From a virus, in the IMG/VR virus record IMGVR_UViG_3300027759_000350, positions 1 through 27,852 of that record: DNA of 27,852 nucleotides. One strand, 5' to 3'. Numbering within the stretch: the stretch's first letter is position 1; the number at the start of each line of letters is the position of its first letter. Below, one piece after another: positions 132 to 22,438 of this stretch. Both the position numbers and the translations under genes were made by a program. Under the pieces are notes generated by a model, which saw only the letters and a list, made by a program, of their open reading frames with translations, was not told the DNA's origin and did no database searches.

Positions 132-783
132 ATGAAACATAAACATCACATAATACCAAGACACCAGGGTGGAACTAATGAGCCTGAAAATATTATCGAA
201 TTGACGATTGAAGAACATGCGGCTGCTCATAAATTATTATATGATCAATTTGGAAGGCATCAAGATTGATTGGTTGGCTTGGAAAGGATTGGCGGGCTTA
301 ATGACAAAAGAAGAAATAGTTAAAGAACACTTAAGCATAGCCGGGAAAAAAGGTGGGTCTGCTGGTAAAGGGGTGACAGGAAATCGCGCTAAAGGTGGAT
401 ATGCAAATTGGGAAAAAAATCGAGAAAAACTTTCAATTATTCTTAAAGACAATGCAATAAAATACGGACATTTGGGTGGTGCTAAAAGTAAAGGTTCATT
501 GTGGATAAACAATGGTGTCGAAACAAAAAAAATAAAGAATGAAGAAATACCAGATGGTTGGGTGTTGGGAAGACTGCCTATGAGTGATGACCAAAAAGAA
601 AAAATAAGCAAAAACCTAACAGGCATAAAAAAGCCTATAAGAACACAAGAACATAAAGATAAAATTTCTAAAAATAAAAGTGGCCGAAAATGGTTTCATG
701 ATCCAGTTAGCAATAAATCCGGTCAATTTAAAATTGAGAATATACCAGAAGGTTGGATTTCTGGTAGAGGGAAAATAGTATAA
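132..783 (+). pseudogene. HNH homing endonuclease, frameshifted by a 4-bp tandem duplication
   Basis: From ATG 132 the first frame encodes an HNH domain: HHIIPRHQGGTNEPENII, then LTIEEHAAAHKLLYDQFG, ending QD-stop at 269. The frame continuing to 783 restarts with DWLAWKGLAGL, the usual continuation in this phage HNH family. The break is at 264-271, where GATT occurs twice in tandem. Removing one copy restores HQ-DWLAWKG in a single frame of about 215 residues. The C-terminal half has two DNA-binding-like repeats (WINNGVETKKIKNEEIPDGW and WFHDPVSNKSGQFKIENIPEGW) with lysine-rich linkers. Such enzymes are free-standing mobile genes inserted between phage genes. Either the gene is dead, or the duplication is an assembly error, or the two halves are made separately; a TTG at 208 could start the second half. 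Confidence 0.82.
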
Positions 784-786
784 ATA
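779..786 (+). promoter_or_regulatory. T4-type late promoter TATAAATA
   Basis: An exact TATAAATA lies 8 nt before ATG 795. The TAA stop of the HNH frame (781-783) is embedded in the box. The predicted leader is about 3 nt. Confidence 0.7.
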
Positions 787-794
787 CATTATAC

Positions 795-1451
795 ATGAAG
801 TCAGAAATACGATTAAAAGATTTACTAACAGTTGATCAAACTGATGGATCATATGAATATGATCCATTGGACATTATGATTACTGCTTATAAAAAGCGTA
901 AAAAAGCATCAATGGTTAGTGAAGAAAATCCAGAAGTTGAGGAGTCTGTCTTTGACACAATGTCAAAGCATGAATTACATGCAGAGTTACTTCGATTAGA
1001 TCGTAATATTAAAAAACTAAACTCTCAGCCTGAAACTCCTGCATCAAAAAGTAATTTGAAAATTTTAAAAACTTCACGAGACTTTATAATGAGTCTCTTG
1101 AAAGAAGACACTTCTGAACTTACTGAAGTGCTGACAGCACAACAACGCATGGCTCGACGTGCAGCCATACGTAAAAACAAATCACGATTAAGGGTTGGCC
1201 GACGTGCAGCATCTCGTCGTCGTGCATCAAATACTGTGTTAAAAGCACGTGCAATGCGTGCAGCTCGCAATGAACTTGCAAAGCGTTTGACTGGTGGAAA
1301 GAGTAAAGGTGAACTATCCTATGCTGCTCGTGCAAACGTTGAAAGACAGCTTGCTCGCAAAAAGGGAATTATTAAAAGTTTAGCGGCACGCCTTATTAGT
1401 CAAGTCCGAACAAAGGAAAACCAACGCCTTAAAAACAAAAATAAGAGATGA
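795..1451 (+). CDS. Basic head-associated protein, candidate internal (packaged) protein
   Basis: The 218-residue protein has two halves. Residues 1-117 are mixed to acidic and start IRLKDLLTVDQTD. Residues 118-218 are extremely rich in Arg, Lys and Ala (RRAAIRKNKSRLRVGRRAAS, then RRRAS, ARAMRAARNE), typical of a nucleic-acid-binding tail. I recognise the basic Arg/Ala-rich C-terminus as a type recurrent in marine T4-like phages, of unknown function, found next to head genes. LTE at 109-111 sits at the junction and fits the (L/I)xE cleavage rule of T4-type prohead proteases, so maturation could release the basic half inside the capsid. That is inference. A late promoter lies just upstream and the stop overlaps the next gene's upstream ATG (ATGA at 1448). 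Confidence 0.7.
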   Translation: MKSEIRLKDLLTVDQTDGSYEYDPLDIMITAYKKRKKASMVSEENPEVEESVFDTMSKHELHAELLRLDRNIKKLNSQPETPASKSNLKILKTSRDFIMSLLKEDTSELTEVLTAQQRMARRAAIRKNKSRLRVGRRAASRRRASNTVLKARAMRAARNELAKRLTGGKSKGELSYAARANVERQLARKKGIIKSLAARLISQVRTKENQRLKNKNKR

Positions 1452-1456
1452 ATAAA

Positions 1457-2485
1457 ATGAAATCGTTTAAGACGTATGTTGAAGAAAAGGTAAATGAGAT
1501 TGTTGTCTCATTTGGTCGCTTTAATCCTCCGACAATTGGTCATGAGGAAAACATAGTTGCTATTGCTAAAATTGCAAAGAACAAACCATTTAGAATATAC
1601 GCTTCTCAGAGCGAGGATCCTAAGAAAAATCCTCTGCCATATAAAGAGAAAATTGACTTTATGCGCAAAATGTTTCCTAAATATGGTCGAAACATTATCT
1701 TTGATCGTGACGTAAAAAATGTATTTGACATTGCAGTGCGCGCATATGACGAAGGCTATACTCGTCTTACACTTCCAGTGGGAAGTGATCGTGTTTCTGA
1801 ATTTAAAGCCCTGTTACAAAAATATGATGGAGTAAAAGGCACACATGGTTACTATAAGTTTTCTGATGGCATAAATGTAGTGTCAACTGGCAGTCGCGAT
1901 CCTGACGTTGATAGCCGAACCGGTGAGGCCACATTTAAAGTAAGCGCATCAAAGATGAGGAGTGCTGCATTTGAAAATGATTTTCAAACGTTTTCAAAAG
2001 GCCTTCCAAAGACATTTGGAAATGCAAAAGAACTCTTTAATGCAGTGCGTAAAGGTATGGGACTAGAAGAGAGTCATAATTTTCGTACACACATACAACT
2101 CGACACTGTAAATGAAACACGTGAACGATATATTGCTGGTGAAATATTTAATATTGGTGAACGTGTGCTCTCTAAAAAAGATGGTGAGGTCTACATTATA
2201 GTTGAGCGTGGTGCAAATTTTGTAAAGTGCACAAATGAAACACGGACTGCGCAGTCTAAGTTTTTTATAAATGATATACTTTCAGAAGAGACCTGGGAAG
2301 ATGGCTATGAGCGCCGTGTTGTAAAAACAACTGACCCTGATCGTTTAGAGGCTGGATACAAATGGAGAATCAAAGGGAAAGATGACGCGGCTCGTACAAT
2401 AAAATACTACAAGAACAAGCCGGACTTTAAAGAATTTACAAACCAAATGAAAAGAGTTGCAGGACATGAATTTGGAAGTCGATAA
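1457..2485 (+). CDS. Nucleotidyltransferase-like (NMN adenylyltransferase / cytidylyltransferase fold) with capsid-targeting-like N-terminus
   Basis: The 342-residue protein begins with a short peptide, MKSFKTYVEEK, followed by a nucleotidyltransferase domain: GRFNPPTIGHEE (20-31, the TxGH nucleotide-binding signature), PVGSDRVSEF (about 107-116) and VSASKMR (162-168, the ISxTxxR-type phosphate-binding motif). This fold transfers a nucleotidyl group, for example ATP plus NMN to NAD, but the substrate cannot be read from sequence. Residues about 200-342 form an extra domain of unknown role. The start is chosen at 1457, with AAGAG about 10 nt upstream; ATG 1448, overlapping the previous stop, would add three residues. 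It lies inside a head-protein module, and its N-terminus resembles the T4 capsid-targeting sequence, so packaging in the virion is possible. Confidence 0.8.
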   Translation: MKSFKTYVEEKVNEIVVSFGRFNPPTIGHEENIVAIAKIAKNKPFRIYASQSEDPKKNPLPYKEKIDFMRKMFPKYGRNIIFDRDVKNVFDIAVRAYDEGYTRLTLPVGSDRVSEFKALLQKYDGVKGTHGYYKFSDGINVVSTGSRDPDVDSRTGEATFKVSASKMRSAAFENDFQTFSKGLPKTFGNAKELFNAVRKGMGLEESHNFRTHIQLDTVNETRERYIAGEIFNIGERVLSKKDGEVYIIVERGANFVKCTNETRTAQSKFFINDILSEETWEDGYERRVVKTTDPDRLEAGYKWRIKGKDDAARTIKYYKNKPDFKEFTNQMKRVAGHEFGSR

Positions 2486-4259
2486 CACTATACTTGAAGA
2501 CTATGGCGCTGGTTTTGAAGGGACAAATGCGCTAAGAGATAAATACATAAAAGACACCCCAGGACAACGCATACAACAATTTAAAACCAAGATGAAACAA
2601 AAAACATATCAAGAGTTTGAAGCTCAACACAAAAAGATGTATCCTTCACATACGACGGATCAAATAAAAGCTGCATACAAAAAATACAGCGAATATTTTG
2701 AAATGGAAGAAGTTGATCTTGAAGAAGCCAAGGATCCAAAACAAGCAGCAGATTTTCAGCGAGTGATTTATGGTCTAATGAAGCAGGATGACTATAATAA
2801 AAAATGGAAGCTTGGTAAATATCGACCAGCTGGAAATAAATTGGCTGGACCTGGTGGACTCTATAAAAATCTGCTTATGCCCAGTAAAAAAGAATCTGAA
2901 ATGGAAGAAGTTTATGGTGAATCATGGGTTGTGTACAATAAAGATACCAAAGCAAAAATCAAACCTTTCAAAACAAGAAAAGGTGCGTATGAATATGCTG
3001 CAAAAAATGGAGGCGTTGTATACAGTGGTGAATATTACCATGATCACCAAGATGACATTAATTCCGGTAAACTTGTAAAAGAAGAATCTTTACAAGAAGC
3101 TGTTCCAAAAATTGACGTTGAAGAACTGCTTGATGCAGCTGCTAAAATGCGAAAGGAAATGCCGGCATTGCGTAAAGGACAATCTATAATGATTACCTTA
3201 CATAATATGAATCCAAAACTATATTCAATGGCAGTGGACAAAGCAGATGCATTTACGGTTGACGCAAAAATCCCAGATTTGATCAACTTCTTGGATCCAA
3301 AATATTATGCTGAATCCGCAAATCTTGATGAAGCTATGGAACCACAAAATACAAGTTATGGATATTATGGAACAGTTGACGTCGAAAAATATAAGCTTAT
3401 TGCTTACAAAGAAATGGCTGATACTGTATTAAAGATAGTTCGTGCTAAAAAAATCTTTGCTAATTTCCCAAATATTACTAGTAATGCAGACCAAGAATCA
3501 GCTGTTGTAAAATACCTTGATTCTAAGCATGGTCGTCATATTGCTGATGGAAATGATTCACCGACCTATATTGAAAAAGATTTTACTAAATTCCTTAAGG
3601 ACTTTGCAGTTGGACACTATATGGAATCATCTGGCCTTGAAGAAGGAAGATTTTTTAATGTTAGAGACTATATGGCAACTTCTGAAAAATCACAATTTGG
3701 CGGTTATAGACCACATATTGTTGATAAAGCCGGCAAGACTATGTATTTGTCAGTAGCAGCGTATAACACTCCAGATGAGGCAAAAGATCACGCTGAAAAC
3801 TATTTGAAACAATACGCTCGCGGAATCAGTGAACCAAGAGTACCAATTAAAGGTACATATGTTAAAGAAGCCATTAACATTAGAGACTATATGGCAACTT
3901 CTGAAAAATCACAATTTGGCGGTTATACTCCAATTGTAGTTGATAAAAAGGGTAAGGTAATGTATTCTGGTCAAGCGTCTTATAACACTCCAGATGAGGC
4001 AAAAGATCACGCTGAAAACTATTTGAAACAATACGCTCGCGGAATCGGCGAACCAAGAGTACCAGTTAAGGGTACATATGTTAAAGAATCTACAGAAGAA
4101 ATTTCTTTGGAAGAACGTCGTCAAATGAAAATTGTTGCACTTGCCACAGGCTCAACTGATCTTGATAAAATCTATGAATATGTGACAACACAACCTGTGC
4201 AATATTCATCTATCGTAGAGCTAAAAGAAAGCTTTAATAAATACATTAACACCCCATGA
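2466..4259 (+). CDS. Large head-associated protein with internal tandem repeat
   Basis: The 597-residue protein is acidic and modular. Short segments such as VDLEEAKDP, ESLQEAVPK, SANLDEAMEP and SGLEEGRFF separate small domains and fit (L/I)xE prohead-protease sites. One module (ESWVVYNKDTKAKIKPFKTR to VVYSGEYYHD) has the look of a small phage virion domain. Two near-identical 73-residue modules (RDYMATSEKSQFGGY to GTYVKE) lie near the C-terminus. The start is ATG 2466, overlapping the previous gene by 20 nt; TTG 2457 is an alternative. AGGAC lies just upstream of the ATG but too close to be a convincing ribosome site. It probably belongs to the head with its neighbours. A catalytic role cannot be assigned. 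Confidence 0.7.
   Translation: MNLEVDNTILEDYGAGFEGTNALRDKYIKDTPGQRIQQFKTKMKQKTYQEFEAQHKKMYPSHTTDQIKAAYKKYSEYFEMEEVDLEEAKDPKQAADFQRVIYGLMKQDDYNKKWKLGKYRPAGNKLAGPGGLYKNLLMPSKKESEMEEVYGESWVVYNKDTKAKIKPFKTRKGAYEYAAKNGGVVYSGEYYHDHQDDINSGKLVKEESLQEAVPKIDVEELLDAAAKMRKEMPALRKGQSIMITLHNMNPKLYSMAVDKADAFTVDAKIPDLINFLDPKYYAESANLDEAMEPQNTSYGYYGTVDVEKYKLIAYKEMADTVLKIVRAKKIFANFPNITSNADQESAVVKYLDSKHGRHIADGNDSPTYIEKDFTKFLKDFAVGHYMESSGLEEGRFFNVRDYMATSEKSQFGGYRPHIVDKAGKTMYLSVAAYNTPDEAKDHAENYLKQYARGISEPRVPIKGTYVKEAINIRDYMATSEKSQFGGYTPIVVDKKGKVMYSGQASYNTPDEAKDHAENYLKQYARGIGEPRVPVKGTYVKESTEEISLEERRQMKIVALATGSTDLDKIYEYVTTQPVQYSSIVELKESFNKYINTP
3660..4091 (+). repeat. In-frame tandem duplication, 219-bp period
   Basis: Two copies (3660-3878 and 3879-4091) are in register by exactly 219 bp (73 codons). 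Long stretches are identical at nucleotide level, for example AGAGACTATATGGCAACTTC at 3663 and 3882 and GGTACATATGTTAAAGAA at 3852 and 4071. They diverge in the middle (RPHIVDKAGKTMYLSVAA versus TPIVVDKKGKVMYSGQAS). The divergence argues against an assembly duplicate and for a real duplication of one domain. Confidence 0.93.
4236..4243 (+). promoter_or_regulatory. Possible late promoter AATAAATA
   Basis: AATAAATA lies inside the end of the preceding gene, 12 nt before ATG 4256. It matches the NATAAATA form but could be chance in AT-rich coding sequence. Confidence 0.35.
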
Positions 4260-5035
4260 AAACACTCAATCAAATATTAAATGAGTCTGAAAACACAGAT
4301 TTAAAACTCCTTAAGACATTTTTAAAGTCAGTAGGTTTTACACAGGCCGAGTCTAATACAAAGACATACAAAACAAGCGCTGCAAATGTATTAGAACTCT
4401 ATGGTATTGCAATGAGAGCTGGTAAATGGGCAGACATCTATGTTGCAATTACTGACGATGCTAAACCATATTGGATCATAGACAACGAAGGAAGAGATAT
4501 GTACTTGTCTGTTAACGATGCAATCAAAGCACTTCAAAAACGCATGCGTACAATTAAAGAGGGCGAAGACACTGAAGAAGTTGACTCAATTGGAGAGACT
4601 CTCTCGTTGCTTGATCAAATTTCTGAGATGACTGAAGAACTCTATGATGCCCTTGCAGATCAAGATTCACTTGATGAGTCTGTAATTTCTGAGGTGCAAT
4701 CAATCTATTCGCATGTTGATGATTTTTACAACACAGTTGATGAAAAATATGGCATTGAGTCAGATGACGATGAGTATGACTTTTCAGACATGAAAGAAGA
4801 ACTTGAAACTGTAACTGAAGAGATTGACTATACCAAATTTAAACGTCTTGCATCAGTAGGTCTTGTTGACTCGGCTGAAATTTCTAAACTTGTTCTTGCT
4901 ATGAAAGCATTAGAATCTGGTAAGGCAATTTCAACCTCCCAAAAGGATATTATCAGCAGCACCTTCTTGTCACTTGTTGCAATTGTTACTGGTGATTCAA
5001 CCGTGCTTAGTAAAATAACTAAAGAGTTAAAGTAA
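4256..5035 (+). CDS. Acidic head-associated protein of unknown function
   Basis: The 259-residue protein starts MKTLNQILNESENTD, a short amphipathic leader resembling the T4 capsid-targeting peptide. It then has a compact domain (about 15-105, including WADIYVAITDDAKPYWIID and a YLSVNDAIKALQ helix), a very acidic helical middle (EGEDTEEVDSIGETLS, SDDDEYDFSDMKEE) and a helical C-terminus. ISEVQS and SLDESVISE resemble prohead-protease sites. It overlaps the previous stop by 4 nt (ATGA). I do not recognise a family. Position and composition suggest a scaffold-like or internal head protein. Confidence 0.68.
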   Translation: MKTLNQILNESENTDLKLLKTFLKSVGFTQAESNTKTYKTSAANVLELYGIAMRAGKWADIYVAITDDAKPYWIIDNEGRDMYLSVNDAIKALQKRMRTIKEGEDTEEVDSIGETLSLLDQISEMTEELYDALADQDSLDESVISEVQSIYSHVDDFYNTVDEKYGIESDDDEYDFSDMKEELETVTEEIDYTKFKRLASVGLVDSAEISKLVLAMKALESGKAISTSQKDIISSTFLSLVAIVTGDSTVLSKITKELK

Positions 5036-5042
5036 CAACAAA

Positions 5043-6314
5043 ATGCCTACCCAATACATATCAAGCACTAATACTCTAACGCGGCAAAATGCGCGTTATG
5101 AGGTAAATATGCTTTCAGATCAAATTACACCGGGTGGCACTCTTGTAGATGCATTTGGACGGTTGCGTATGTCTGAACCATACACACTATTTGAAAGCCA
5201 ACATCGTTATACCGAAAATGATAAATGGAGTACTGTAACTGCGTCTGGCGGAAGCACCACTCATGTCTCTGCGGAGAGTGCAATCAATATGTCAGTTACA
5301 ACAACAACTGGCAGCAAGGTCATTCGCGAGTCAAAGCGGGTAATGCCATATCAACCTGGGAAAAGTTTGCTCATTATGTCAACCTTTGTTATGTCAGCTC
5401 CAACTGCTGGACTACGCCAAAGAGTTGGTTATTTTGGTAGTGACAATGGAATATATTTAGAAAATGACGGGACTGGAAACTTTATTGTACTTCGCAGCCA
5501 AAGCTTAGGTACAACAATTCGCGTACCTCAAAGCGAATGGATCGGCGATAAATTTAATGGATCCGGTTATTCAGACGTGACACTCGACGTTACAAAGTCA
5601 AATATTTTTTGGATTGATGTTGAATGGCTCGGTGTAGGTGATGTTCGTTGCGGATTTATTGTACACGGTAAACCTGTTGTTGCTCATATATTTCACAATG
5701 ATAACGTTCGCACTACAACATACATGACAACTGCGTGTCTGCCAATACGCTATGAAATTGAAAATTTAGGATCTGCTAGTGGAACACTTAAACAAATATG
5801 CAGCACTGCTATTTCAGAGGGTGGCTATAATCCAGAATCCATTTCATATCATCAAGCGTCATCGGCTTCAGTATTTGTCACACGATCAACTAATGCAACA
5901 ACTGGTGACCGCGGAAAATTTTTCAATGCAGTATCAATTCGCTTATCATCATCTAAGTTAGATGGTATAATAGTTCCAACTGGAGTTTCTGTTGTTATTG
6001 AACAAAATAAAAAATATCAATGGGCACTGATAAAAAATGCAACATTTGCAACAACACCAACATGGTCTTCACATCCAGATTGTTCAACAGTTGAATTCTC
6101 AATAAGTGATTCAATTATGAATGGCGGCGTTGTAGTAAAATCTGGATTTATTACAAATGCAAGTGAATCTGTAGAATTAACAAATATAGGAAACCTTTTC
6201 TTACAATTAGGAAGAACACAAGGAGGTGTATCTGATACATATACATTGGGAATTGCTGCAGATTCAACAAATTCAACATTTAATGCATTATTAAGTTGGC
6301 ATCAAATTATATGA
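5043..6314 (+). CDS. Virion surface/structural protein (DAFGRLRxSEP family)
   Basis: The 423-residue protein is rich in beta-type residues, Ser, Thr and Gly, with no membrane segment or catalytic motif. The segment DAFGRLRMSEPYTLFESQHR (about 38-57) is a signature I recognise from predicted structural proteins of marine phages, where it opens a beta-rich domain. The rest (repeated short strands, NDGTGNFIVLRSQS, GVGDVRCGFIVHGKP) is consistent with a fibre, head-decoration or receptor-facing protein. It follows the previous gene by 7 nt and overlaps the next by 4 nt. Structural assignment is fairly secure; the exact location on the virion is unknown. Confidence 0.72.
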   Translation: MPTQYISSTNTLTRQNARYEVNMLSDQITPGGTLVDAFGRLRMSEPYTLFESQHRYTENDKWSTVTASGGSTTHVSAESAINMSVTTTTGSKVIRESKRVMPYQPGKSLLIMSTFVMSAPTAGLRQRVGYFGSDNGIYLENDGTGNFIVLRSQSLGTTIRVPQSEWIGDKFNGSGYSDVTLDVTKSNIFWIDVEWLGVGDVRCGFIVHGKPVVAHIFHNDNVRTTTYMTTACLPIRYEIENLGSASGTLKQICSTAISEGGYNPESISYHQASSASVFVTRSTNATTGDRGKFFNAVSIRLSSSKLDGIIVPTGVSVVIEQNKKYQWALIKNATFATTPTWSSHPDCSTVEFSISDSIMNGGVVVKSGFITNASESVELTNIGNLFLQLGRTQGGVSDTYTLGIAADSTNSTFNALLSWHQII

Positions 6315-6625
6315 TACGCTTTAAAGACTACATCTCTGAAGAGGCTGAGTATGATGGCCGAAAGGTTGAACTAAACAACCCATTTCGTTCAACTGATGAA
6401 AAGCATAAGTTCTATGTCTATGTTCGTAATGAAAAAGGCAATGTAATTAAACTTGGATTTGGAGACCCCCAGGCTGAGATTAAACGCGATGATCCTGAAC
6501 GTCTAAAAAACTTCCGAGCACGTCATCAATGTGACACTGACCCAGGTCCAAAATGGAAAGCTCGTTATTGGAGTTGCAAATTTTGGGAAAAAGGAAAAAC
6601 AGTGACTGACCTGTTGTCTACATAA
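6311..6625 (+). CDS. Small conserved phage protein (FGDP...RARHxCD family)
   Basis: The 104-residue protein overlaps the previous stop by 4 nt (ATGA), which fixes the start better than the TTG at 6296. It begins MIRFKDYISEEAEYDG, another capsid-targeting-like leader with an ISE site. It then has KFYVYVRNEKGNVIKLGFGD, IKRDDPERLKNFRARHQCD and ARYWSCKFW. This pattern is a small family I recognise from marine phages and some large algal viruses; function is unknown. One cysteine in RARHQCD and one in YWSCKFW could help bind a metal. Confidence 0.75.
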   Translation: MIRFKDYISEEAEYDGRKVELNNPFRSTDEKHKFYVYVRNEKGNVIKLGFGDPQAEIKRDDPERLKNFRARHQCDTDPGPKWKARYWSCKFWEKGKTVTDLLST

Positions 6626-6634
6626 AAGCGCATA

Positions 6635-6642
6635 TATAAATT
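6635..6642 (+). promoter_or_regulatory. Late promoter variant TATAAATT, 5 nt before ATG
   Basis: TATAAATT in the 22-nt gap ends 5 nt before ATG 6648, predicting a leaderless transcript. No Shine-Dalgarno sequence fits in the gap. Confidence 0.6.
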
Positions 6643-6647
6643 ATATT

Positions 6648-7016
6648 ATGCAGCTTTTACATGAATTGACCAATAAAAACTTTCTGATATATGCCGCAAA
6701 ACACTATAATAATCCAGGGTGTTTGGACATAAAGGATTTTGAGTCAGACCTTGCTCACCTAAAATACATTAAAAAACTTCTTAAGAAGTATGGTGATAAA
6801 GGTGTCCTGCAAGAGAGATTAATTCTTAACCATATTATTATTTTTCATAATATGTTTTATCCAGAGGCAGCAACTCGTATGTGCTTCTATAAGGTTCATG
6901 AAGAGAATTGGCCTGCATTAAAAACCTTTCTCTTGTATTTAAACTACATCCCAAATGGCGATTATATAAATATACCTATTGATCTAAATATAGCAAGAAC
7001 ACTTCAAAAAATTTAA
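6648..7016 (+). CDS. Conserved T4-like phage protein (DUF7207-like)
   Basis: The 122-residue helical protein has the pattern NFLIYAAKHYNNP, then FESDLAHLKYIKKLLKKY, then LQERLILNHIIIFHNMF and EAATRMCFYKV. I recognise it as a small conserved family found in many T4-like phages near neck or tail genes (remembered as DUF7207). No catalytic residues are apparent and the function is unknown. The start is fixed by the late promoter immediately upstream. The next gene begins 4 nt after the stop. Confidence 0.75.
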   Translation: MQLLHELTNKNFLIYAAKHYNNPGCLDIKDFESDLAHLKYIKKLLKKYGDKGVLQERLILNHIIIFHNMFYPEAATRMCFYKVHEENWPALKTFLLYLNYIPNGDYINIPIDLNIARTLQKI

Positions 7017-11520: not shown

Positions 11521-12390
11521 ATGATAATCGTTGACTATTCGGGAGTTGCAATTTCAGGAATATTTTCTCAATCTGCCCCAGGGAAAATTACTGAAGACTT
11601 TATGAGACACATTATTCTCAATTCACTGAGAATGTACAATCTCAAATATCGTGAAAAATATGGTCAGCTTATTTTAGCTGTTGACAGTGGTAGTTGGCGC
11701 AAAGGCTATTATCCAGAGTACAAGGCATCACGTAAGAAAAACCGAGACTCTTCAGCTCTAGATTGGACAGAAATTTTCTCTATTATCAATACTGTTCGTG
11801 ATGAAATTACTGAACACATGCCATATCCAGTTTTAGCTGCACCTCGTGCTGAGGCTGATGATGTTATTGCCACTCTTGTAGAGTCTACACAGGAGTTTGG
11901 CGCACATGAGCCTGTAATGATTATTAGTGCAGACAAAGACTTTATTCAACTGCAAAAATACGACAACGTGTCTCAATGGAGTCCAATGACTAAAAAGCTG
12001 TTGTCAAGTTCAAATCCTCATCGATACCTATGCGAACATGTCTTTAGGGGTGACTCCGGTGATGGTGTTCCAAATGTACTATCAGGTGATCGTGTCTTTA
12101 CTGAAGGTGGTCGTCAAACTCCATTAAGTGCAAAGAAAATTGATGCTTGGTACTCTGCCGCAAAGGCAGGAACACTCGAGTCTGCCATGCCTGCTGAAGC
12201 ATATAGAAACTATATTCGCAACTCCAAACTAATTGACTTGTCATGCATACCAGATGAAATTAAGGAATCAATCTTGACAGCCTATTCATCACTCCAGAAA
12301 AAGGGAAACAGCAAAGTCTTTAATTATCTAGTGTCTAAACGATGCAATCAATTAACTTCTTGTGCAGAAGAGTTTTTCACATATAAATAA
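11521..12390 (+). CDS. rnh: T4 Rnh-type 5'-3' exonuclease / RNase H (FEN-1 family)
   Basis: The 289-residue protein has the acidic metal-binding residues of the flap-nuclease family in order: Asp5 (MIIVDYSG), Asp55 (LAVDSGSWR), EADD (111-114), SADKD (136-140) and GDSGDGVPN (177-185). KGYYPEYKASRKKNR is the basic arch that grips the 5' end. In T4 this enzyme removes RNA primers and 5' flaps during lagging-strand synthesis. The C-terminal domain is helical. It is transcribed from its own early-type promoter. A TATAAATA box overlaps its last codons and stop, driving the next gene. Confidence 0.93.
   Translation: MIIVDYSGVAISGIFSQSAPGKITEDFMRHIILNSLRMYNLKYREKYGQLILAVDSGSWRKGYYPEYKASRKKNRDSSALDWTEIFSIINTVRDEITEHMPYPVLAAPRAEADDVIATLVESTQEFGAHEPVMIISADKDFIQLQKYDNVSQWSPMTKKLLSSSNPHRYLCEHVFRGDSGDGVPNVLSGDRVFTEGGRQTPLSAKKIDAWYSAAKAGTLESAMPAEAYRNYIRNSKLIDLSCIPDEIKESILTAYSSLQKKGNSKVFNYLVSKRCNQLTSCAEEFFTYK
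12382..12389 (+). promoter_or_regulatory. T4-type late promoter TATAAATA
   Basis: An exact box overlaps the last codons and stop of rnh and ends 12 nt before ATG 12402, predicting a leader of about 7 nt. Confidence 0.6.
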
Positions 12391-15230: not shown

Positions 15231-15238
15231 TATAAATA
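15231..15238 (+). promoter_or_regulatory. T4-type late promoter TATAAATA
   Basis: An exact box 25 nt after the tRNA ends 9 nt before ATG 15248, predicting a leader of about 4 nt. It heads the three-gene paralogue cluster. Confidence 0.7.
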
Positions 15239-15247
15239 ACTAGATAT

Positions 15248-15766
15248 ATGAAACCATTTCACTATAACCAAGATCCACTGTATGCAGTAGCTGCATCAAT
15301 TCTCGCAGGCCAAACCGTTACTGAAGACGTCACTCTTGAAGAAGGAGTAGAAGATATTGCAGCTAATGTTGCCAATTTTAAAAAAGGTGACAAAACCAAC
15401 TTTGGTGTAGTCACCGATGTTTCTTCCACCAGTATCACTTTTAAAGCAAAGGACCTACCAGTCACAAAGATTGCTTTCAACCAACGCAAGATGGGCAGCA
15501 AAGATTTTGTACTTGACAAACTAATTAAGCTTAAGGAAAGCGAAGGCATAAAAGAAGGTGAAGAAGATTTTTATTCACAAAAGATGATTAAAAATCAATT
15601 AAACACAATTGTTCGTAATGCAAATGTATGTCTTCAAATGATTGAGGCTGGTCGCAAATTTCCTGAATGGGCACAGAGTGAAATTGCAGTATCTGAGGCT
15701 GGCATTGTAAGTGTCACTGAGTTTATGGAATCACACTCAGATGGTGTTAAACTAGGTGAAGCATAA
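15248..15766 (+). CDS. Late protein with N-terminal FHYNQD motif and beta-barrel-like domain (paralogue 1)
   Basis: The 172-residue protein starts MKPFHYNQDPLYAVAASILA, shared with the next gene. Then comes an acidic linker with TLEEGVED, then a domain (about 40-98: FKKGDKTNFGVV, ITFKAKDLPVTKIAFN, RKMGSKDFVLDKLIKLKE) shared with the third gene. The C-terminal half is helical. LEE and IKE sites resemble prohead-protease cut points. I recognise the middle domain from predicted virion proteins of marine phages; its function is unknown. It is driven by the late promoter just upstream. Confidence 0.7.
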   Translation: MKPFHYNQDPLYAVAASILAGQTVTEDVTLEEGVEDIAANVANFKKGDKTNFGVVTDVSSTSITFKAKDLPVTKIAFNQRKMGSKDFVLDKLIKLKESEGIKEGEEDFYSQKMIKNQLNTIVRNANVCLQMIEAGRKFPEWAQSEIAVSEAGIVSVTEFMESHSDGVKLGEA

Positions 15767-15786: not shown

Positions 15787-16041
15787 ATGAACCCATTTCA
15801 CTATAACCAAGACACTGTAGCAGATGCAGCGGCTTCAATACTTGAAGCATCATCTGATGAACTTGCGTCACTTACAAAGGTGATGCTTAGCGCTGGTGCT
15901 TCATATGGAGACATTAATGCTGTGCGAGATAAACTTGGTTCTGACCCAAGCAGTGTATTTCTCTTGAAAATTGCAAATGTAATTGCACATGACACATCAC
16001 TCTTTAACTCTTTTGTGCAAGCATACAAACTTCAAAAATAA
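15787..16041 (+). CDS. Short late protein with FHYNQD motif (paralogue 2)
   Basis: The 84-residue protein starts MNPFHYNQDTVADAAASILE, aligning with the preceding gene over about 20 residues and over the first 27 nt almost base for base. It then diverges to a helical domain (ELASLTKVMLSAGASYGDIN, VFLLKIANVIAHD). The shared leader suggests a targeting or assembly signal rather than a fold. It ends 3 nt before the next gene. Function unknown, probably virion-associated. Confidence 0.65.
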   Translation: MNPFHYNQDTVADAAASILEASSDELASLTKVMLSAGASYGDINAVRDKLGSDPSSVFLLKIANVIAHDTSLFNSFVQAYKLQK

Positions 16042-16044
16042 ACT

Positions 16045-16689
16045 ATGAAAAATACTGACACTCTACTAGAAAACGCCCGTGCATTAATCACATCTACAAA
16101 ATTAGATGAAAATGTTGACCACATCAAGTCACTCGTTTCAACTGTTAAAATAGGCGACTCTACTAATTTTGGTAAAGTCCTTGAAATTGGTGCAAACAGT
16201 ATTACATTCAAAGCTAAAGATTTACCAAAGACCACAATTCCTTTTAATGCCCGTAAAATGGGAAGCAGAGACTATGTGCTTGACAAGCTCATTAAATTAA
16301 AAGAAAATAAACTTGAAGAAGTACTTGACCCTAATGACGATGCAGGTGTTTGGATTGATGATTTCGTAAAGAGTGACAATCCTAAATTTGCAGGTAAAAG
16401 CAAAGAACAACGTATCAAAATGGCTCTTGGTGCCTGGTATGCAGCACAGAAAAAAGAAAGTTTAGGTGAAGAAACACTCAAAGAATTGTACTCAATTAAG
16501 ACTTCTGCAGTTCGTACTCTTATGGCTGAATTTACATCATTAGATGCAGTTGAACTTGAAGACTTTTTCAAGGCAGCACAAGCGTATTTTGCAAAAGAAG
16601 GTGATGAATTTGACAATGACGATTTTAATGATTTGTCTATTATAATGGACAAAGCTGCAAAAAGATGGCATAATCGTGCTACAAATTAA
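16045..16689 (+). CDS. Late protein with shared beta-barrel-like domain and WIxDFxxSDxPxFxGKS motif (paralogue 3)
   Basis: The 214-residue protein has the domain VKIGDSTNFGKVLEIG, ITFKAKDLPKTTIPFN, RKMGSRDYVLDKLIKLKE, closely matching paralogue 1. It is followed by DAGVWIDDFVKSDNPKFAGK and IKMALGAWYAAQKKE, a short module I recognise from many marine-phage head proteins. The C-terminus is acidic and helical (LDAVELEDFFKAAQAYFAKE). LEEV and LGEE are candidate prohead-protease sites. It is the last gene before a strong terminator. A head role is likely but unproven. Confidence 0.7.
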   Translation: MKNTDTLLENARALITSTKLDENVDHIKSLVSTVKIGDSTNFGKVLEIGANSITFKAKDLPKTTIPFNARKMGSRDYVLDKLIKLKENKLEEVLDPNDDAGVWIDDFVKSDNPKFAGKSKEQRIKMALGAWYAAQKKESLGEETLKELYSIKTSAVRTLMAEFTSLDAVELEDFFKAAQAYFAKEGDEFDNDDFNDLSIIMDKAAKRWHNRATN

Positions 16690-17952: not shown

Positions 17953-17964
17953 TATTTATAAATA
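17953..17964. promoter_or_regulatory. Palindromic bidirectional late promoter TATTTATAAATA
   Basis: The 12-mer is a perfect palindrome, so each strand carries an exact TATAAATA. The + box ends 6 nt before ATG 17971. The - box ends 8 nt before the ATG at 17944. Predicted leaders are about 1 and 3 nt, so one 12-bp element could drive two divergent, essentially leaderless messages. Confidence 0.7.
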
Positions 17965-22430: not shown

Positions 22431-22438
22431 TATAAATA
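22431..22438 (+). promoter_or_regulatory. T4-type late promoter TATAAATA, 5 nt before ATG
   Basis: An exact box in the 20-nt gap ends 5 nt before ATG 22444, predicting a leaderless endolysin message. Confidence 0.72.

Follow-up and report, generated by a model that had tools for sequence, protein, structure and literature searches.

The window analysed here is a 27,852-base IMG/VR virus sequence, and near its beginning a nucleotidyltransferase ORF lies between a small basic ORF and a long ORF that resembles a polyprotein (Table 1). The first-pass annotation had begun the nucleotidyltransferase at position 1457, a choice that we favour over the ATG at 1448 because the N-terminal peptide then falls into the T4 register. 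The transcription unit follows a T4-type late promoter box, TATAAATA, of which the window holds nine copies where 2.04 were expected (none of 100 shuffles reached nine). Other copies include those at 119-126, 6965-6972, 12382-12389, 15231-15238, 17957-17964 and 22431-22438, and five of the seven boxes on the + strand sit 5-12 nt ahead of a start codon. A box is kept ahead of the ORF 795 homolog in two relatives, L004 and L016, and in S-PM2 the late promoter has been reported as NATAAATA (PMC2984593).

Table 1. Features of the nucleotidyltransferase locus, in window coordinates.
Feature	Position	Strand	Basis or remark
T4-type late promoter box TATAAATA	779..786	+	8 nt ahead of ORF 795, first gene of the transcription unit
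Upstream basic, Arg-rich ORF, 218 aa	795..1451	+	PHROG_23027, E 8e-8; overlaps the nucleotidyltransferase ORF (1448 start)
Nucleotidyltransferase ORF, intact	1448..2485 or 1457..2485	+	ATG 1448, 345 aa; ATG 1457, 342 aa
Capsid-targeting-like peptide MKSFKTYVEE	1457..1486	+	Alignment with T4 MKTYQEFIAE; conserved in family
Nucleotidyltransferase domain	1496..2071	+	Residues 17-208 of the 345-aa form; AlphaFold2, structure comparison (best Z 12.7)
Motif GRFNPPTIGH	1514-1543	+	Sequence
Motif VGSDR	1778-1792	+	Sequence
Motif SRDPD	1892-1906	+	Sequence
Motif VSASKMR	1940-1960	+	Sequence
Conserved L-x-E (GLEE/SHN), candidate prohead-protease site	2063..2071	+	Domain end; putative cut before SHN
Small all-beta C-terminal domain	2162..2284	+	Residues 239-279, AlphaFold2 secondary structure
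Downstream ORF, 597 aa, polyprotein-like module string	2466..4259	+	L/I/V/M-x-E then A/G/S junctions
ORF with weaker capsid-targeting-like start, MKTLNQILNE then S	4256..5035	+	Exact-register pattern
Predicted virion structural protein	5043..6314	+	PHROG_1645, head and packaging, E 5.7e-105
ORF with capsid-targeting-like start, MIRFKDYISE then E	6311..6625	+	Exact-register pattern; PHROG_7595

The polyprotein-like ORF contains seven [LIVM]xE[AGS] sites compared with 1.97 expected (p 0.002), and in its alignment with the L004 homolog several large indels adjoin LxE-type junctions, as in a processed polyprotein; it also holds two near-identical repeats (RDYMATSEKSQFGGY...). Modules of this block are found fused to the nucleotidyltransferase in relatives, namely an ORF 795-like module in Stenotrophomonas phage DLP6 (PHROG_23027, E 4e-24, together with PHROG_3041) and DUF5824 with the ORF 6311 module (PHROG_7595) in phage Melnitz, and PHROG_455 unites a DUF6267 protein with the nucleotidyltransferase. 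The idea that this is a block of head genes held in part: ORF 5043 belongs to PHROG_1645 and the S-SCSM1 homolog is flanked by genes (90 and 92) with virion-protein annotations, but the window contains no capsid, portal or scaffold gene. A gene for a gp21-type prohead protease is likewise absent from the window; such a protease (Peptidase_S77) was present in seven of nine long records carrying the family and was not seen in the other two, one of them the L004-lineage contig, a 100-kb fragment. Elsewhere in the window, three tandem related ORFs lie at 15248-15766, 15787-16041 and 16045-16689, the first two beginning MKPFHYNQD and MNPFHYNQD and the first and third sharing a KDLPxTxIxFNxRKMGSxDxVLDKLIKLKE stretch.

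A profile search of ORF 1457-2485 matched the PHROG_395 'cytidyltransferase' family over residues 12-294 (E 7.6e-63) and PHROG_3041 in second place (E 1.1e-58), with a match to Pfam CTP_transf_like that lies under the Pfam cut-off (E 0.0034). The protein combines the full-domain PHROG_395 match with all of the family motifs (GRxNPPTxGH, GSDR, RDPD and SASKMR), and these intact motifs and the AlphaFold2 fold confirm the TxGH/VSASKMR nucleotidyltransferase domain recognized from the sequence at first pass. Homologs were found by tblastn in 530 of 50,697 phage records, every one less than 60% identical, chiefly in T4-like phages of Synechococcus and Prochlorococcus, with others in phages of Methylophilales and Pelagibacter and in some of the jumbo phages. 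IMG/VR contains relatives that are 73% identical (L016) and 57-60% identical (L004 with its two identical copies). A search of plasmid sequences gave no match. We considered a cellular origin for the 36 matches in genome contigs and rejected it, as every title points to a binned genome or one assembled from a metagenome, and the contigs are probably of phage origin and were sorted into the bins of their hosts. In several phage records, including L225 (P-SSM2), stretches that match the family carry the names of unrelated proteins (ribonucleotide reductase A, tail fiber protein and IMP cyclohydrolase among them), and in S-SKS1 (L226:3498-4758) the gene has in-frame stops past the leader, reflecting a frameshift or a sequencing error.

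A capsid-targeting-like peptide and the virions of relatives

The N-terminal peptide of the window protein aligns with T4 MKTYQEFIAE in exact register, having aromatic residues at positions 4 and 7, an aliphatic residue at 8 and Glu at 10 (F4, Y7, V8 and E10), and thus has all of the T4 determinants at these positions. The first 10 residues of T4 IPIII suffice for packaging, with positions 4 and 7 directing targeting and 8 and 10 governing processing (PMC9026906), and almost any protein is taken into the head by the T4 tag (PMC7697877); in the T4 IpII record, a signal peptide of 10 residues (-10 to -1) is annotated ahead of a mature protein of 90. The window protein thus shares with IPII and IPIII a 10-residue peptide of this pattern, but the sequence relation ends at the tag, the cargo in the window being an enzyme domain and cleavage there being putative.

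The reality of the peptide, suggested by the first-pass annotation, was borne out by its frequency: of the window's 104 candidate starts, 3 carry the exact-register pattern where 0.04 were expected by shuffling, as do 5 of 43 starts in L016 and 4 of 58 in L098, each count exceeding every one of 2,000 shuffles, with the strict and loose patterns having been defined post hoc, once the peptides had been seen. The three starts in the window are 1457, 4256 and 6311, with none beyond 1.4-6.4 kb. The peptide behaves as a separate tag, since it is unstructured in the AlphaFold2 model, is absent from jumbo-phage homologs such as CBB, which begin at the first strand, and stays at the extreme N-terminus in a second subfamily (L109, L111, L133 and others; MKSFFQFLNEA, MKSFSKFITEA, MKNFLRFLSEA) despite ~100 residues preceding the enzyme. 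A T4-type 10-residue tag probably explains entry of the window protein into the head. In the open-licence literature, we found no paper connecting capsid-targeting sequences with Synechococcus phages.

Members of the family have been detected by mass spectrometry (MS) in four separate virion preparations. Sullivan et al. reported in 2010 that the 'citidylyltransferase' (T4-GC190), a cyanophage core protein, was present in purified S-SM1 virions (PMC3037559), and later studies detected S-SCSM1 ORF91 (PMC9602691), S-CREM2 ORF154 (gp154; 3 peptides; PMC10665884) and S-SZBM1 gene 140 (S-SZBM1_140; 2 peptides; PMC9146016); S-CBWM1 is also named beside the virion proteins of the family (PMC10665884). 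The peptide counts for S-CREM2 and S-SZBM1 are low. The window protein is 41% identical to the S-SCSM1 protein (E 3e-50) and 33% identical to those of S-CREM2 and S-SZBM1 (E 9e-32 and 3e-35), and these three begin with the targeting-like sequences MKSFLQFLKE, MKNFSSFLTE and MRFRQFIIE, respectively. ORF91 (QFG06348.1, annotated NMNAT) has a homologous enzyme domain but, unlike the window protein, carries a leader of ~100 extra residues that separates the tag from the enzyme and includes a DGHGGWYD module. Its authors proposed an effect on NAD should the protein enter the cell and warned of co-purification (PMC9602691), which the S-CREM2 authors also did not exclude (PMC10665884). By analogy, these MS detections together with the T4-type peptide support the carriage in the virion that was proposed at first pass; that proposal was right in outline and not new, as both the virion MS and the NAD suggestion had already been published.

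We asked how the tag relates to virion detection in the S-CREM2 proteome (219 proteins, 52 of them virion-detected). The strict pattern was found in three proteins (0.03 expected by shuffling), the gp6 SAM hydrolase, the gp14 APH-like kinase and the gp154 nucleotidyltransferase, and all three were MS-detected. With a score matrix trained solely on metagenomic nucleotidyltransferase N-termini, and with the 99% quantile of scores at internal positions as the threshold, 7 of 11 high scorers were virion-detected (p 0.0045 against the overall 52 of 219), or 6 of 10 if gp154 was left out (p 0.012). Tag variants are also found on virion-detected gp12 (annotated Cas9-like; LRFASFMAEA) and gp136 (MQTFSMFFSE). 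Among 162 T4 ORFs, the same matrix ranked IPI 2nd and IPIII 11th. The loose pattern gave 5 of 11 proteins in S-CREM2 virions (p 0.09), and a rank test of matrix scores against virion detection over all S-CREM2 proteins was not significant (p 0.06), so that the association of tag and virion rests on the high-scoring tail. We conclude that the enrichment is support for packaging, short of proof.

We give a probability of roughly two in three to the reading that the window protein is a late-expressed, capsid-internal nucleotidyltransferase of a T4-like marine phage, delivered in the manner of T4 internal proteins. In this mechanism the N-terminal sequence would tether the enzyme to the prohead core; a gp21-type prohead protease would probably take off the tag and perhaps cleave a second time, at the conserved LxE past the enzyme domain; and the enzyme would stay in the head, probably to be ejected with the DNA like T4 Alt and the internal proteins, whose example makes injection into the host plausible. 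The enzyme itself, having the PPAT/NMNAT fold, would transfer an adenylyl or cytidylyl group, and its acceptor is most likely a small phosphorylated molecule; the best single guess, weakly supported, is NMN or NaMN. For the window protein, we infer tag cleavage, ejection and host entry, catalytic activity and substrate alike.

The window protein is a typical representative of an enzyme family already known from virions; what is added here beyond published work is the T4-register tag, the conserved late promoter, the fold and a pseudoenzyme lineage. It has the profile family, motifs and domain order of PHROG_395 / T4-GC190, members of which have been detected in virions, but its lineage has its own C-terminal region, a short tag and no linker, and its closest lineages include the pseudoenzyme.

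Fold, substrate and a lineage without the active site

The window protein is predicted to fold as a nucleotidyltransferase of the PPAT/NMNAT type. The AlphaFold2 model has a mean pLDDT of 85, with values of at least 93 at residues 21-150 and 171-210 and mostly above 95 in the domain (17-208), and the four motifs are nearly invariant across 66 family members. Structure comparison placed PPAT (Z 12.7), the M. thermoautotrophicum NMNAT (Z 12.1; rmsd 3.2 over 154 aligned residues) and a NaMN-type enzyme (Z 12.1) in a tie, with matches covering 150-156 aligned residues. The comparison with NadM and NadR, suggested as a check in the first-pass annotation, thus upheld the nucleotidyltransferase fold but gave NMN enzymes no edge over PPAT or the NadD type. 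Overall, the domain resembles CoaD, NadM/NadR and NadD in fold (Z ~11.5-12.7 over ~150 residues) and in its TxGH/HxGH and SxSxxR-type motifs, and differs from them in that identity is ~10-19%, no curated cut-off is reached and the conserved RDPD loop is distinctive of the phage enzymes.

Sequence searches gave a similar picture. A single-sequence PDB search with the window protein returned nothing at E 1, and the best hit of a profile search of the PDB was an NMN/NaMN adenylyltransferase at E 0.66. TIGR01526 (NadM/NadR) scored 15.5 bits, short of its cut-off of 341, and among the 66 members the NCBIfam models of NMN/NaMN enzymes (TIGR00482, 42 members; TIGR01526, 40) matched more often than PPAT (27), all of these matches being weak and far under cut-off. 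Nor did the fold single out an NMN-specific identity, the NMN, NaMN and phosphopantetheine enzymes being inseparable in structure comparison. As the substrate is settled by neither fold nor profile, the role in the host NAD pool or against NAD depletion that was raised at first pass stays unproven; the structural matches are tied, the family models weak, and a close relative is without the active site.

The absence of a structural preference for NMN is also consistent with a packaged enzyme acting, instead of on NMN, on a macromolecule or some unusual acceptor, be it a host protein, an RNA or a signalling nucleotide, an unlikely reading though the best placed of the alternatives. In its favour are the SAGxRDPDxxGVxG loop ahead of SASKMR (S/A-G-x-RDPD), which is nearly invariant and family-specific yet poorly ordered in the model, and the packaging of the S-CREM2 enzyme together with a SAM hydrolase and a kinase; against it, none of the homologs found has a known macromolecular substrate, and the nearest curated families use small molecules.

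The first-pass annotation had described an uncharacterised C-terminal domain fused to the enzyme, and the AlphaFold2 model agrees, with a small, separate beta domain at ~239-279 that on inspection appears SH3-like. Between the two, the helix stops at residue 203 and pLDDT falls past ~residue 210, and [LIVM]xE is found at residues 206-208 in 61 of 66 members. T4 gp21 cleaves after Glu within short motifs (PMC9026906), which makes processing by the prohead protease at this domain-end LxE plausible.

One lineage has lost the active site. At L004:5001-5981, also present in L005 and L006 (a single lineage, since the three contigs share an identical 17-kb stretch, L096-L098), all four motifs are gone and the tag, fold and C-terminal domain are retained. 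GRFNPPTIGH has become DSFNPPTIHD and GSDR has become RTEH, while 14 residues are deleted in frame across RDPD up to SASKMR, itself destroyed, leaving a 327-aa frame open. The fold is predicted with confidence by AlphaFold2, though from an alignment made of motif-bearing relatives. Identity between L004 and the window is 51% in the nucleotidyltransferase domain and 71% in the C-terminal domain, compared with 76% and 71% for the motif-bearing L016, and we conclude from this that the enzyme domain of L004 evolved faster. All four motifs are intact in 104 of 107 members, a set collected partly by a motif-based pattern and so biased toward motif-bearers, and L004 alone of the other three has lost all; L134 is without two motifs, but its sequence is truncated by the contig end. 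Catalysis is thus dispensable in one lineage, given that L004 keeps the tag, fold and C-terminal domain without the motifs.

This lineage, in which packaging signals are kept and catalysis is gone, has to be accounted for by every functional proposal, and it argues for a mainly structural or DNA-binding internal head protein whose fold serves as a scaffold with catalysis secondary or vestigial, as do the fusions of the nucleotidyltransferase to other modules of the block. We consider that reading improbable, and slightly more so than a macromolecular acceptor, given the nearly invariant motifs of the 66 members and their integrity in all but three of the motif-biased 107. Least probable is a cytoplasmic auxiliary metabolic enzyme (NMN adenylyltransferase) contaminating virions, as the best-matching curated families (NMN/NaMN adenylyltransferases), the MS authors' own caution and tagless jumbo-phage homologs such as CBB might suggest, for family members recur in four separate virion preparations, the targeting peptide goes with a late promoter, and the S-SCSM1 neighbours are virion proteins.

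A leader module and possible further cargo

The preferred reading of a packaged, injected nucleotidyltransferase may extend to other enzymes. In many cyanophage nucleotidyltransferases the tag is followed by a leader module of ~45 residues (A..LGL..DGHGGWYD..G..VAKT..G.L.FY), which is also present on S-CREM2 gp12 (L135:7704-10313) and gp14 (L135:10579-12846) and on two S-B68 proteins (L227:3054-4994 and 5257-7008), one of them kinase-like by inspected motifs. The Cas9 label of gp12 has no Pfam support, with PHROG_3561 the only match. Among 80 IMG/VR loci with a close form of the leader, 77 are nucleotidyltransferases, and a search of these loci for other enzymes behind it found in the remaining three (L165, L183 and L202) only the leader in a short frame near the locus end. 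The leader protein of P-SSM2, although listed as hypothetical, likewise proved to be a nucleotidyltransferase. By its sequence distribution, the leader points to a common mode of presentation for different virion enzymes.

More tentatively, with the odds somewhat against it, marine T4-like phages may possess a general cargo system in which a portable tag, with or without the DGHG leader, marks enzymes for processing in the head and for joint delivery at infection, and in which modules are shuffled between genes at LxE junctions, as would be the case in the window's block. Its cargo would comprise the nucleotidyltransferase, the SAM hydrolase, the APH-like kinase, the protein annotated as a Cas9-like nuclease and possibly more. 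Cyanophage virion enzymes have so far been reported piecemeal, with contamination left open, and a tag that predicts packaged proteins would let candidate injected enzymes be read from genomes alone.

Further observations concern related proteins. S-CREM2 gp156 (L137:26012-26725), a virion-detected hypothetical encoded two genes past the cytidylyltransferase, has a match to NTP_transf_2 (E 3e-4), another type of nucleotidyltransferase that is unrelated to the PHROG_395 enzyme. The DUF6267 protein at L016:2982-4217 has a targeting-like start, MKTFKQHLTEA, and by eye a K-x-DG-like stretch, KFDGAPAVF. Elsewhere on the L004-lineage contig, MKSFK-type tags begin two proteins on the minus strand (L266:1112-2209 and L267:1672-2283), both without a Pfam match, and the first contains a GS...DVD pattern and could be a nucleotidyltransferase of the polymerase-beta type.
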